From Gammaproteobacteria bacterium (GTDB lineage: Bacteria; Pseudomonadota; Gammaproteobacteria; GCA-001735895): 64,000 nucleotides of DNA. Shown here in pieces: positions 46,705 to 52,539 of this stretch. The position numbers were made by a program, and so were the translations under genes. The DNA is taken from NCBI GenBank assembly GCA_030066085.1, contig JASJCI010000029.1, positions 26,199 to 90,198 of the forward strand, in the 5' to 3' direction. Position 1 is the stretch's first letter, and every line of letters begins with the position of its first letter. The notes beneath the pieces are model-generated. The model searched no databases, had not been told where the DNA came from, and was given only the letters and a program-made list of their open reading frames with translations.

Positions 46705-47706
46705 TTGCAACCGATTACGATTCGCTATCTCAGCGGTCACGACGTGGCCGCGCTCGAACTCGCCAACGACGAAATCCTGGACGCCGTCGAGCAGGCGCTG
46801 CGCGCGCAGGGTGAAGGTCGCACGGTCATCGAGCCGCGCATGCACCTGGTCGCCGACCCTGACTGCGGCGGACATTTCAACGTGCTGCGTGGATACATCG
46901 GCCCCGGTAATAACGCCGGGGTCAAGGTGGTCGGCGACTTCCACGGCAATTACCGGCTCGGCCTGCCGTCCGAGTTCGGCCTGCTCAACCTGTTCGACGG
47001 CCGTACCGGGCAACCGCGCGCGATCCTCGATGCCACCGGTATTACCGAGATGCGCACCGGCGCGGTCACCGCGATCGGCGCGAAATACCTGGCGCCGTCA
47101 CGACCGCGAGTGCTCGGGCACATCGGTGCACGCGGCACCGCCTACTGGAACGTCCGCCTGCTCGACCACCTCTTCGACTTCGAGGAAATACGCGTGCATT
47201 CGCGCCGCGCCGACAGCCGCGAAGCCTTTGGCGAACGTCTTGCCCTCGATCTCGGCAAGCCGGTGCGGGTGGTCGACAACTGGCGCGACTGCCTCGAGGG
47301 TGCCGACATCCTGGTCGAGGCATCGCGTCTCGAGCAGCCGGAGCCGCTGTTACGCACGCGCTGGATTCGCCCGGGCGCGCTGGTGATTCCCTACGGCACC
47401 ATGAGCACGGTCGAGGACGATATCACCGATATCATGCACAAGATCGTGGTCGACGACTGGGGGCAGTGCACCGTTGGTCCCTTTGGCTGCCTGCGGCGCC
47501 ACGTCGACAGTGGTCGGATCACGCGCGCCAGCATTCACGGTGAACTCGGTGAAATCTGCGCCGGCCGCATTACCGGGCGTGAGCGCGACGACGAAACCTG
47601 CCTGCTGTGGCACCGTGGACTGTCGACCTCCGATATCGCGCTTGGCGTCGCCATGCTGGACAAGGCCGAGCGGCTCGGGCTCGGTATGGAGTTACCCTAC
47701 GCGTGA
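46705..47706 (+). CDS. Ornithine cyclodeaminase / mu-crystallin family protein (TTG start)
   Basis: GVKVVGDFHGNYRLGLP...GITEMRTGAVTAIGAKYLA. Confidence 0.85.
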   Translation: MQPITIRYLSGHDVAALELANDEILDAVEQALRAQGEGRTVIEPRMHLVADPDCGGHFNVLRGYIGPGNNAGVKVVGDFHGNYRLGLPSEFGLLNLFDGRTGQPRAILDATGITEMRTGAVTAIGAKYLAPSRPRVLGHIGARGTAYWNVRLLDHLFDFEEIRVHSRRADSREAFGERLALDLGKPVRVVDNWRDCLEGADILVEASRLEQPEPLLRTRWIRPGALVIPYGTMSTVEDDITDIMHKIVVDDWGQCTVGPFGCLRRHVDSGRITRASIHGELGEICAGRITGRERDDETCLLWHRGLSTSDIALGVAMLDKAERLGLGMELPYA

Positions 47707-49184
47707 TCCGGATAACCCGCCGCGAGGATCTCGACTGGGTGACTCTTTACGGGGTTGCCTACCAGGATGCGCCGCTCGAACTCGGTGCCGCGCTGCTGCA
47801 GCGGGTCGAGGCGGGGCGCCGGCACTTCGAGCAACTGATCGCGGCCGGGGCAGCCTGTTACGGCGTGACCACCGGGCTCGGCAAACTGGTCGACGCCGAG
47901 CTCGATGATCAGGCCCGGCGCGACATCGCCGCCAACATGCTGCGCGCCCGCGCGGCCGCGATCGGCGAAGCACTGCCGCGGCCGGCGGTGCGTGCCATGC
48001 TGCTGATTCGCCTGGTCAACTTCCTCGATGGCCGCGCGGCGGTCAGCGCGGATCTCTGCCGCTTCCTGGTCGAGCGCCTCAACGATGGCTTCACGCCGTG
48101 GGTTCCCGTGCTGGGTCACGGTATGGCGGGAGATGCGATTGCGCATACGCATGCCTTCCAGACCCTGATCGGCGAAGGCTTCGTGGTTGGTGCCGACGGT
48201 GCGCGCGAGCCGGCGGCTGCGGCACTGGCCGAACGCGCAGTCGAACCATTCGCGGTCAGCGGGCGCGAGGGCCTGGCCCTGGTCGGCGGCGTCTGTGCCG
48301 CGCCGGCCTGCGCCATGCACGCATATTACCGCGTGACCCGCGCGCTCGAGCTGGCCAACCTGGTTGCCGCGGCCTCGATGGAAGGACTGGCGGCGCCGAA
48401 AGACTCGGTCGATCCGGCCGTGGCGGCGGTTAGCAGCGAGAGCGGTATCGCCAGGGTGATCGAGCGCCTGCGCAAACACCTCGATCACAGCCGTATCGAC
48501 GTGCACAGGCTGCAGGCACCGGTCTCCTACCGGGTGATCCCGCAGGTGCACGGCGCGCTCGACGACGCGCTCGCGCAGCTGCGCGCCAGGATCGAAAATG
48601 CCCTGCGCGACAACAGCGACAATCCGCTGCAGGACGGCGACCGGCTGCTGTCGGTGGGCGGGTTTCACAACCAGCACCTGGTCAACCAGGTCGAGCAGGT
48701 GGCGCTGGCGCTGGCGCATGTCGGCGCGCTTTCCGAACGCCGCTTGCAGCGCCTGCTGCAGGCGGAATTTACCGGCCTGGCCCCGCAGCTTGCCGGCCGC
48801 CCGGGGCTCGACGCCGGACTCGTGGTTGCGCACAAGGCAGCGCTGGATCTCGGTGCGCGACTGCGCGTCATGGCGCAACCGGTTTCGCTGCTGACCGGCG
48901 AATCGTCGGCCGGCCAGGAAGACTACATGTCGCACGCGATTCCCGCCGTGCTGCGCCTGTTCGATATGCTCGAGCTGGTGCATGCGCTGTTCGCCTACGA
49001 ACTGCGTGCCGCCTTCGCCGCGCTCGATCTGCGCAAGCAGCGGGCGGGTGACGACGTCGCCGCCGTACGGCGCTACTTCGCCGAGTCGATCCCGCCGCTG
49101 GAGCGCGATCGAGCGCCGGGGCCCGAGGTCGAAATCCTGCTGGCGCACTTCGAGCGCGACGAATTCCGGCATCTCTGGAACTGA
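47703..49184 (+). CDS. HAL/PAL-family (aromatic amino-acid lyase) homologue lacking the MIO-forming ASG triad
   Basis: YGVTTGLGK, LRDNSDNPLQDG, family fold; but GHGMAGDAIAH in place of GxxGASGDLAPLAH; GTG start overlapping the previous stop (GTGA). Confidence 0.85.
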   Translation: MIRITRREDLDWVTLYGVAYQDAPLELGAALLQRVEAGRRHFEQLIAAGAACYGVTTGLGKLVDAELDDQARRDIAANMLRARAAAIGEALPRPAVRAMLLIRLVNFLDGRAAVSADLCRFLVERLNDGFTPWVPVLGHGMAGDAIAHTHAFQTLIGEGFVVGADGAREPAAAALAERAVEPFAVSGREGLALVGGVCAAPACAMHAYYRVTRALELANLVAAASMEGLAAPKDSVDPAVAAVSSESGIARVIERLRKHLDHSRIDVHRLQAPVSYRVIPQVHGALDDALAQLRARIENALRDNSDNPLQDGDRLLSVGGFHNQHLVNQVEQVALALAHVGALSERRLQRLLQAEFTGLAPQLAGRPGLDAGLVVAHKAALDLGARLRVMAQPVSLLTGESSAGQEDYMSHAIPAVLRLFDMLELVHALFAYELRAAFAALDLRKQRAGDDVAAVRRYFAESIPPLERDRAPGPEVEILLAHFERDEFRHLWN

Positions 49185-49200: not shown

Positions 49201-50517
49201 ATGGCATCTCGCTGGCAACGAACGCTGTTTTACGCTGCCGGACTGCCGCTGCTGGCGGGGTTGCTCGGTGGCGGCTACTGGCTATTCCTGCATGATCCGG
49301 AACCGGTCGATGCCATCGCCTTTTTCTACCCGGCGCCGGGTATCGCAATTGAAGACAACGCGGCCTGGACGATCGCCGGCCTGGCCGCGCCCGCGGGCAT
49401 GGCGGATTTTCGCCCCTGGGGTTACCAGCAGGTGTTGCACAATCGCGAACGCGCGCGCGAGGGCGATACCCCGCTGCCGCTACTCGGCAGCTATGCCGGC
49501 AGCCGCCAGATTTCGTCTCTCGCGGGGGTCGATCGGCGCCGTCTCTACTGCTGGCTGCCGGATCCGGCGCTGCTGAGCCGCAGCGCGGACTGTTACTCGC
49601 GCGCCGAGCTCGATGACATCCTGCGGCGCAACCGCGAGCGCCTCGAACGTTATGCTTCGCTGTTCACCTATGCCACGCTGGACAACCCGGCCTACTACGG
49701 CATCGATCTCGCCGATCTGCTGGTGTTCAGCGATCTCTACCGCTTGCGCTTGTGGCTGGCGCGCGAGCGCCTGTCGGCAGCGGACCTGGGCGAGGTGTTT
49801 GCTTATTTTCGCTTCTGGGAAGGCCTCGCGCGGCGTGCCGAGGTCGACGTCAACAATCGCCTGATGCTGCTGCTGCACTATCGCAAGGCTTCGGCGCTGC
49901 TGGCCGCGCTGAGCGAGCGCGATCCCTCGGTCCTGTTGCGTTACCACGCCGTTCACGGTCGTTTCGACGAACCCGGCGACGGCCGCGAATTTCTCGATCG
50001 CGCGCTGCGGGGCGAGTATTTTCGCCTGGATCGGCAGCTGTGCCTGTCGCGCGCGCTCGGGCAGGATGGCGATTGCCTGGTCGACGGGCGGCGCTTTCGC
50101 GGCAAGCTGGGCGAGTTTCTCCGCCGCATACACGCGCGCAGGGTAGCGCCAGGGCAATGTGCCGCCGAAATTGCCAGTCAGTCGGGGCCGATCGAGCGCT
50201 TCGATTTCTGGCAAACCCTGCTGCGCGACCCGGCCAACATATCCGGCAATATCCTGCTCACCACGGTCGCAAGCCCCGCTGATCTGTGCCGTCTCTGGCG
50301 CGACTACCTGCTCGAGGCCGAGGCTGGCCGCTGGCGCAACCGTTTCGTCGAGATGGCGCTGGCGCCTGGCGCGCGCGGACCTTCGACGACCCTCTTCAGC
50401 GGTGACCTGACCGGCAACCGCTTCCTGTGGGATGCCGGCGGCGGTCGCCTGCGTTGGTTGAATCGGCAATTCGTGCGCGACTATTCGTTGCGGCTCGATG
50501 GTGTCGCAGCCGAATAG
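49201..50517 (+). CDS. Uncharacterised membrane-anchored protein
   Basis: N-terminal TM (LFYAAGLPLLAGLLGGGYWLFL), no family recognised; 13 bp after the HAL-like gene. Confidence 0.75.
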   Translation: MASRWQRTLFYAAGLPLLAGLLGGGYWLFLHDPEPVDAIAFFYPAPGIAIEDNAAWTIAGLAAPAGMADFRPWGYQQVLHNRERAREGDTPLPLLGSYAGSRQISSLAGVDRRRLYCWLPDPALLSRSADCYSRAELDDILRRNRERLERYASLFTYATLDNPAYYGIDLADLLVFSDLYRLRLWLARERLSAADLGEVFAYFRFWEGLARRAEVDVNNRLMLLLHYRKASALLAALSERDPSVLLRYHAVHGRFDEPGDGREFLDRALRGEYFRLDRQLCLSRALGQDGDCLVDGRRFRGKLGEFLRRIHARRVAPGQCAAEIASQSGPIERFDFWQTLLRDPANISGNILLTTVASPADLCRLWRDYLLEAEAGRWRNRFVEMALAPGARGPSTTLFSGDLTGNRFLWDAGGGRLRWLNRQFVRDYSLRLDGVAAE

Positions 50518-50537
50518 TCCTGTTCTTCGCGCGGCTG

Positions 50538-51386
50538 ATGCCGGAAAATGCCGACATGATCGAAACCGGTGACTTCGTCGCGTTCATGATCGCCCACGAG
50601 GGCATGTTTCGCCTGTGCCTGTTCGTGCTGGTTTTCGGCCTGATGTTCAGCTGGGAAAATCGCGCGCCGAAGCGTGAGCTGACGGTGCCGCGCTGGCAGC
50701 GCTGGCGGCATAACCTGGCGCTGACCGCGCTCAATACGCTGCTGCTGCGGCTGCTGTTTCCGGCCGCCGCGGTCGGCCTGGCGCTGTCGACCAACGCCGC
50801 CGGCTTCGGCCTGTTCAACCGGCTCGCCCTGCCATTGTGGCTCGAGCTGCCGCTCGCCGTGCTGGTACTCGACCTGGCGATCTACTGGCAGCACCGCCTG
50901 ATGCATCGCGTGCCGCTGCTGTGGCGACTGCACCGGGTGCATCATGCCGACCTCGATATCGACCTGACCACCGGCGCCCGCTTTCACCCGCTCGAGATCC
51001 TGCTGTCGATGCTGTACAAGTGGGCCGTGATCCTGCTGCTCGGTCCGGCCACGCTGGCGGTGCTGGTTTTCGAACTGTTACTCAACGGCATGGCGATGTT
51101 CAACCATGCCAACGTGGCGTTGCCGGCGAGGCTCGACCGCGCGCTGCGCCGGCTGCTGGTAACGCCTGACATGCACCGCGTGCATCATTCGATCCGGCGC
51201 GCGGAGAGCGACAGCAATTTCGGTTTCAACCTGTCGTTGTGGGACCGCTGGTTCGGCAGTTATACCGATCAACCCGCGCATGGTCATCGCGGCATGACTA
51301 TCGGCCTGGCCGGGTTGCGCGATGCGCACCAGGTCGACCGCTTGCCGGGTATGCTGAAACTGCCTTTCGTCGGTGGACGTGAGTAG
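50538..51386 (+). CDS. Sterol desaturase / fatty acid hydroxylase family protein
   Basis: Histidine boxes HRLMH, HRVHH, HRVHH. Confidence 0.9.
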   Translation: MPENADMIETGDFVAFMIAHEGMFRLCLFVLVFGLMFSWENRAPKRELTVPRWQRWRHNLALTALNTLLLRLLFPAAAVGLALSTNAAGFGLFNRLALPLWLELPLAVLVLDLAIYWQHRLMHRVPLLWRLHRVHHADLDIDLTTGARFHPLEILLSMLYKWAVILLLGPATLAVLVFELLLNGMAMFNHANVALPARLDRALRRLLVTPDMHRVHHSIRRAESDSNFGFNLSLWDRWFGSYTDQPAHGHRGMTIGLAGLRDAHQVDRLPGMLKLPFVGGRE

Positions 51387-52539
51387 CCGGGCAGCTGGCG
51401 CGGGCGCAAGCCTGATGAGCGTGCCGCAGGGCGAGTTCGAGCTCATGCGCTGCCCCCCGGCACCGTCCCTGCAGGCCTGGGACGCGGCCGACGAAATGCT
51501 GCTCAGGCACCTCGACGAGATTTGCATACTGCGGCGTGACTCCCGCGTGTTGATCGTCAACGACGGCTTCGGTGCGCTTGCCGTGGCGCTGGCGGATCAT
51601 CGCGTCTATGCCTGGAACGACTCGCTGCTCGCACAGCACGCGCGCGCGCTCAACCTGCGCGCCAACGGTATCGAGGACACCGGCCTCGAATACAACCGCG
51701 ATGCCGCCTTTCCGGCCGCGCCGGCGGACGTGATCCTGTTGAAAATTCCGAAATCGCTGGCCTTGCTGGAACAACAGCTTTATGCCCTGCGCGAGCGGAT
51801 GTTGCCGGATACCCGTTTGCTGGCCGCCGGCATGGCGCGCCACATTCACCGCTCGACCCTCGACCTGTTCGAACAAATCATCGGCCCGACGCTGACCACG
51901 CGCGCGGTGCGCAAGGCCCGGCTGGTCCTGCCGGAGCGTGATTTCTCGCTGACCCAGGGCCAGGGTCCAGGCCCCGGGAGTTATACCCTGGTGCTCGATC
52001 GCGATTACCGGATTCGCAGTCATGCCGGCCTGTTCAGCCGCGACCGGCTCGACCGCGGCAGCCGGATGCTGATCGAGCATTTGCCGACGGGCGATGCCCC
52101 GTTGCGTATCGTCGACCTCGGCTGCGGTAGCGGCGTGGTCGGCATTGCCGCCGCGGCCCTGAACCCGCGCGCGCAACTGTTGTTCAGCGACGAATCCTAC
52201 CTCGCGGTCGACTGTGCGCGTATCAATTTCGAGGATGCCTTCGGCCGCGCGCGGCAAGCGCGTTTCACCGTCGACGACTGCCTGCGCGAGGAGGCCGATG
52301 CCAGTGCCGACCTGGTGCTGGTCAACCCGCCCTTTCACCAGCAGCACAGCGTCGGTGATGCGGTTGCCTGGGAGATGTTCCGCCAGTCGCGCCGGGTGCT
52401 CGAGACGGGCGGTGGCCTGGTAATCGTCGGCAACCGGCACCTGGCCTACCATGCGAAGCTGAAAAAACTGTTCGGCAACGCCGAGGTGCTCGGTTCCGAC
52501 AGCAAGTTCGTCGTCCTGCGCGCCAGCAAAACCCTTTAA
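51373..52539 (+). CDS. rlmG: RlmG/RsmC-type rRNA methyltransferase
   Basis: LQAWDAADEMLL N-terminal domain; VDLGCGSGVVGIAA; LVNPPFHQQH. Confidence 0.87.
   Translation: MDVSSRAAGAGASLMSVPQGEFELMRCPPAPSLQAWDAADEMLLRHLDEICILRRDSRVLIVNDGFGALAVALADHRVYAWNDSLLAQHARALNLRANGIEDTGLEYNRDAAFPAAPADVILLKIPKSLALLEQQLYALRERMLPDTRLLAAGMARHIHRSTLDLFEQIIGPTLTTRAVRKARLVLPERDFSLTQGQGPGPGSYTLVLDRDYRIRSHAGLFSRDRLDRGSRMLIEHLPTGDAPLRIVDLGCGSGVVGIAAAALNPRAQLLFSDESYLAVDCARINFEDAFGRARQARFTVDDCLREEADASADLVLVNPPFHQQHSVGDAVAWEMFRQSRRVLETGGGLVIVGNRHLAYHAKLKKLFGNAEVLGSDSKFVVLRASKTL

Follow-up and report, generated by a model that had tools for sequence, protein, structure and literature searches.

A conserved branch of the HAL/PAL superfamily that lacks the MIO triad and is paired with a dehydrogenase gene

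The MIO group, which helps the alpha-amino group leave, is regarded as a hallmark of the HAL/PAL superfamily. We analyzed a 64,000-nucleotide stretch of gammaproteobacterial DNA (the window; assembly GCA_030066085.1, contig JASJCI010000029.1, positions 26,199 to 90,198) in which one gene encodes a HAL/PAL-like protein without the residues that form this group. The question raised by the locus was whether such a protein is a dead copy or an enzyme that works without the cofactor. The initial annotation had offered both readings, a pseudoenzyme or an enzyme with new MIO-independent chemistry. Our analysis excluded decay, and the conservation described below favors a working enzyme; the word "new" needs a qualifier, since the HAL superfamily already includes an enzyme without MIO, ergothionase.

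The lyase gene and its altered active site

The lyase gene and the positions discussed below are these:

47703..49184, + strand: MIO-less HAL/PAL-superfamily protein; GTG start, 493 aa, ORF intact
47859..47861, + strand: Tyr53, the retained catalytic Tyr (HutH Tyr53), by alignment
47949..47951, + strand: Arg83, conserved in the family, in place of the HAL ring-selectivity residue His83, by alignment
48123..48131, + strand: Met-Ala-Gly codons ATG GCG GGA, in place of the MIO-forming Ala-Ser-Gly, by alignment and codon check
48285..48287, + strand: Gly195 (GGC) within LVGG, in place of Asn195, within the family in the window protein only, by alignment and codon
48513..48533, + strand: QAPVSYR for QDPYSxR, with Gln and Arg kept and Tyr280 lost, by alignment
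48834..48836, + strand: Lys378, a new residue invariant in the family (Val386 in HutH), by alignment
48915..48923, + strand: Gln-Glu-Asp, which keeps the HAL-type Glu414, by alignment

The ORF had been described as full length, and it matched Pfam Lyase_aromatic (PF00221) end to end, with 332.8 bits over residues 14-455 (cut-off 27.3) and with positions 5-460 of the 466 in the profile covered, a whole-domain match. With the NCBIfam hutH equivalog TIGR01225 the protein scored 303.8 bits, below the cut-off of 539.15. The AlphaFold model of the lyase showed the full HAL fold with a mean pLDDT of 81.4, and Foldseek gave TM scores of 0.82-0.88 against HAL, aminomutase and ergothionase structures; pLDDT in the active-site loops of the model fell below 50, which is expected when a tetrameric enzyme is modeled as a monomer. 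By domain match and predicted fold, the window lyase is thus a member of the HAL/PAL superfamily.

The family-profile alignment placed Met141-Ala142-Gly143 of the window lyase on Ala142-Ser143-Gly144 of Pseudomonas putida HutH, with Asp145 kept. This was in agreement with the codons and with the earlier reading of the triad as M-A-G with Ser changed to Ala. It had been allowed that a canonical ASG might lie elsewhere in the protein, but a motif search of the whole window lyase detected no ASG, GSG, TSG or SSG. The motifs YGVTTGLG, DNPL and QEDYMS were present as described. The motifs QAPVSYR and LVGGV had also been read correctly as having lost Tyr and Asn, respectively; the two losses differed in reach, since Tyr280 was lost family-wide whereas the loss of Asn195 was confined to the window protein. 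Judged from its sequence, a protein without the triad Ser and without Tyr280 is outside the MIO-dependent ammonia-lyases and aminomutases.

A rare, preserved family and its dehydrogenase partner

We scanned the genomes of 85,462 species for relatives of the lyase and found ten close ones, 48-65% identical, in assemblies labeled gammaproteobacterial, 'Proteobacteria' or Chloroflexota/Anaerolineae. A further, divergent member (L053, from genome G253) came from a genome search, which makes 11 relatives and, with the window protein, 12 family members. The triad Ser was absent in all 12, the forms seen being GHGM-A/G-A/G-D or GHGFAAD, and the Tyr280 motif read QA/S-x-[VI]-S-x-R, with Val or Ile at the position in every member. 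Arg occupied the His83 position in every family sequence that covered the site. This substitution, like the partner dehydrogenase described below, had been missed by the initial annotation. Tyr53, Gln277, Arg283, Phe329 and Glu414 (HutH numbering) were kept in the family, while among ten members His139, Gln324, His325, Asn328, Asp370, Lys378 and Tyr408 (window numbering) were new and invariant. Asn195 was kept in all the relatives, with Gly in the window protein only.

None of the lyase genes tested had an in-frame stop. The dN/dS was 0.082 for L011/L012 at a dS of 0.19, the one unsaturated pair, and 0.34 for the window/L005 pair; other pairs were mostly saturated. The family was found in 2 of 369 Gammaproteobacteria genomes and 3 of 396 Anaerolineae genomes, and among 399 Pseudomonadota genomes in the window's own only. 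Profile scores in Anaerolineae left a clear gap between the family (708-882 bits) and the MIO-bearing proteins (from 323 bits down). The family is therefore rare but well preserved. Relaxed selection or frameshifts had been named earlier as signs of simple decay; the intact ORFs, the purifying selection, the shared active site with its conserved new residues and the occurrence of relatives with the partner gene in three phyla ruled this out at the family level.

The gene directly upstream of the lyase encodes the partner:

46705..47706, + strand: ornithine cyclodeaminase/mu-crystallin-family (OCD) NAD(P)-dependent dehydrogenase, the conserved partner; 333 aa, Pfam OCD_Mu_crystall 157.4 bits
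47703..47706, + strand: 4-bp overlap, GTGA, in which the dehydrogenase stop codon and the lyase start codon lie, read from the sequence; the same overlap occurs in L005 and L011

The overlap is consistent with translational coupling of the two genes. Orthologues of the dehydrogenase (53-79% identity) adjoined the lyase or lay near it in L005, L006, L007, L009, L011, L013 and L014; they were directly adjacent in L005, L007, L009, L011 and L013 and in Actinobacteria. By profile search the partner was present in 9 of the 11 lyase-bearing genomes, and in the two exceptions (G021 and G410) the lyase lay at a contig edge; the lyase and its partner were on different contigs in G408 and G253. A search that started from the dehydrogenase recovered the same pair in three further actinobacterial genomes. 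The partner gene is thus almost obligate across three phyla. The dehydrogenase model had a pLDDT of 87.7. It was about equally near to archaeal alanine dehydrogenase, pyrroline-2-carboxylate reductase and SbnB, with which it shares fold and family at 24-28% identity, and it passed none of the NCBIfam equivalog cut-offs (the best, TIGR02371, gave 155.7 against 409.15). Because the branch is well preserved and almost always occurs with this one dehydrogenase gene, the family protein is probably not a dead copy but a functional enzyme whose chemistry differs.

Phylogeny and known relatives

We built a maximum-likelihood tree from 44 proteins and rooted it at the midpoint, so the direction of change is not proven. 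The 12 family members formed one clade in it (support 100/99). A branch with support of 100/100 separated all 23 canonical ASG enzymes from a group made up of the family, four OCD-linked proteins from Actinobacteria and two paralogues from marine genomes. The marine proteins (L101:4476-5927, - strand; L106:5156-6607) are a third HAL-family paralogue in TMED61-type genomes, with Cys-Ala-Gly-Glu (C-A-G-E) at the triad, QAPVSWR, and GQND for GQED; in the tree a very long branch led to them, and the actinobacterial OCD-linked proteins were their sister group. Of the three actinobacterial triads read, two were A-A-G or S-A-G and one kept Ser as S-S-G. Within the larger clade this may reflect repeated loss of Ser or the survival of a Ser form. 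The Ser-keeping protein (L115:8373-10385, S-S-G-E) is OCD-linked and may be an intermediate form linking MIO-bearing and MIO-less proteins. In Paractinoplanes tereljensis a further divergent HAL-family protein (L102:5608-7044), which has GAIG-TGDL at the triad and LEEHA for QEDH, is encoded about 8 kb away from its OCD-linked counterpart.

Two plasmid proteins, one from Klebsiella pneumoniae (L048:4920-6452, NZ_CP046646.1) and one from Agrobacterium tumefaciens (L047:5860-7407, NZ_CP123840.1), had the triad deleted (GSVGY---LIA). They resemble the family in lacking the ASG triad and Tyr280 (here Leu) and have Gly or Ser for Asn195, with His83 and QD kept; no OCD partner was found in the annotated stretches around them. 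Since they fell among the ASG enzymes in the tree, they represent a separate loss of MIO. The Klebsiella copy is on a conjugative IncF plasmid alongside an ABC transporter, hutU, hutC and formimidoylglutamate deiminase, and both proteins are annotated only as aromatic amino acid ammonia-lyase.

Among proteins of known structure, HutH (P. putida 1B8F/1GKJ; T. acidophilum 7TQR) shares with the family the whole fold and length as well as Tyr53, Gln277, Arg283, Phe329, Glu414 and Asp145, and HAL structures gave the best profile and Foldseek E-values for the window lyase. The family differs from HutH in the missing MIO triad, in His83 to Arg and Tyr280 to Val/Ile, and in its place on the opposite side of the 100/100 branch. 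Ergothionase, the ergothioneine trimethylamine-lyase, expels trimethylamine. It is a HAL relative without MIO (PMC13405746). The T. denticola structure (6S7J) gave the highest TM score with the window lyase, 0.87-0.88, but at about 25% identity ergothionase is less similar in sequence than HutH. Its profile score was 194.6 bits against 301.6 for ordinary HAL, behind HALs, tyrosine aminomutase and AdmH, and the family's 74-residue stretch around Lys378 and Glu406 had no match in ergothionase at E up to 10. Neither the sequence rank nor this fragment search supported a simple ergothionase orthologue. The HAL fold without MIO was already known; the MIO-less clade with its rebuilt active site and dehydrogenase partner did not appear in the literature searched, which held nothing relevant on MIO-less HAL pseudoenzymes or OCD-HAL pairs.

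Gene neighborhoods and the candidate reaction

In L011 and L012 the genes for PhyH, OCD and lyase were followed 11 bp on by HutI, and HutF, canonical HutH and HutU lay in the vicinity. L008/L105 had the lyase, a 218-aa protein and HutI, with the OCD gene on another contig next to a Rieske oxygenase. L006/L103 had HutU, DUF402, GAPDH, an MFS transporter, Rieske, OCD and lyase. An MttB-family methyltransferase lay downstream of the lyase in L007 (directly) and L013; a pyrrolysine-type TMA methyltransferase was rejected for the L007 neighbor (327 against 525 bits, and no in-frame TAG), which is thus a non-Pyl MttB. The Rieske gene adjoined OCD in G406 and G408, the two proteins being 91% identical, and PhyH lay near OCD in L011 and G253 (46% identical). 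In G253 (L053:4971-9003) the lyase lies by a cytochrome P450 and a gene read by eye as glycine-amidinotransferase-like, which had no Pfam or NCBIfam match; no hut genes were found in this lyase stretch. HutU shared the lyase contig in G406. Canonical HutH was not found in G406, G407 or G408; the genomes compared are draft assemblies, in which absence is weak evidence. Elsewhere the window's genome carries HutU, HutI and a canonical HutH that is divided between two contig ends; no hut or betaine genes were identified beside the pair, and the window itself contained no PhyH or Rieske homologues. Since most genomes of the family set also carry canonical HutH, the MIO-less protein is not simply their histidine lyase.

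The kept Tyr53, Arg283 and Glu414 (Glu rather than Gln at 414 being the HAL, or imidazole, signature) and the Hut, MttB and Rieske neighbors point to a C-N lyase acting on an N-modified compound that would probably derive from histidine. Our preferred reading, to which we give a probability of about 0.45, is a functional MIO-independent HAL-fold C-N lyase that acts on an N-activated, likely histidine-derived substrate together with the OCD partner. Taken separately, that the family protein is catalytically active is very probable, C-N elimination as its reaction is somewhat favored, and the origin of the substrate from histidine is tentative. The lyase would be made together with the NAD(P)-dependent dehydrogenase; Tyr53 would be the base that removes the beta proton, Arg283 would hold the carboxylate, and Glu414 with the new Arg83 (perhaps also Lys378) would hold and polarize a nitrogen-containing ring. 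Cleavage of the C-alpha-N bond would need no MIO electrophile, since the nitrogen that leaves would already be activated as a methylated or otherwise substituted amine, as in ergothionase. In the step immediately preceding or following elimination, the dehydrogenase would oxidize or reduce an imine or an N-substituted amino acid, the lineage-specific oxygenases (Rieske, PhyH, P450) or the MttB-type methyltransferase may process the same modified amine, and in some hosts a histidine-derived product could drain into the HutU/HutI pathway.

The differences in neighbors between lineages count against this histidine-derived reading. There is a substantial minority chance that the enzyme, equally MIO-independent, is not a C-N lyase of histidine derivatives. 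It would instead catalyze, for example, an elimination, dehydration or addition on a different substrate that resembles an amino acid, such as a guanidino, keto or imino compound, which the OCD enzyme would then reduce or would have just oxidized. The change of His83 to Arg and the loss of Tyr280 alter ring and amine recognition, and Arg83 suggests a fit to an anionic or carbonyl-bearing group better than to plain imidazole. The P450 and amidinotransferase-like neighbors in G253, away from hut genes, likewise suggest another substrate, and the OCD partner is as near to SbnB as to the alanine dehydrogenase and the pyrroline-2-carboxylate reductase. The retention of Tyr53 and Glu414, and HutI or HutU nearby in several hosts, speak instead for the C-N lyase.

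It appears improbable that the protein is catalytically dead and persists in a structural or regulatory role, such as that of a scaffold or sensor working with the OCD enzyme. Such a pseudoenzyme would account for the loss of MIO and Tyr280 (and of Asn195 in the window protein) and for the near-strict co-occurrence with the OCD gene, but Arg83, His139, Gln324, His325, Asn328, Asp370, Lys378 and Tyr408 are new, invariant, polar residues at or near the aligned active site, which suggest chemistry, as do the kept Tyr53, Arg283 and Glu414. Still less credible is an ordinary ammonia-lyase that works at a low rate or draws its electrophile from other residues. Some Chloroflexi genomes with HutU or HutI had no canonical HutH in their incomplete assemblies, but HAL is known from established enzymology to be almost inactive once its MIO is mutated, no family member has the triad Ser, the window protein contains no ASG, and several hosts keep canonical HutH as well. 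Decay in the window's genome alone, to which the private loss of Asn195 might point, is negligible given the intact ORF and operon, the relatives in three phyla and the purifying selection.

Whether the OCD dehydrogenase and the MIO-free lyase form an undescribed two-enzyme module for a new degradation step of an N-modified amino acid in Gammaproteobacteria, Chloroflexota and Actinobacteria, with acid-base catalysis in a rebuilt HAL site free of cofactor, is in our estimate evenly balanced. A clade without MIO, its site rebuilt with Arg, Lys and His and tied to one dehydrogenase, is a natural experiment on what the fold does once the electrophile is gone. The clade also marks many automatic annotations of "histidine ammonia-lyase" as erroneous, and a substrate screen could be aimed at the two genes of the pair. 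Downstream of the window lyase lie genes for an FA_hydroxylase-family protein (50427-51386) and an RlmG-like 23S rRNA methyltransferase (51373-52539); homologues of both, recognized by N-terminal sequence, appear to follow the L004 lyase, which suggests local synteny in the genus.
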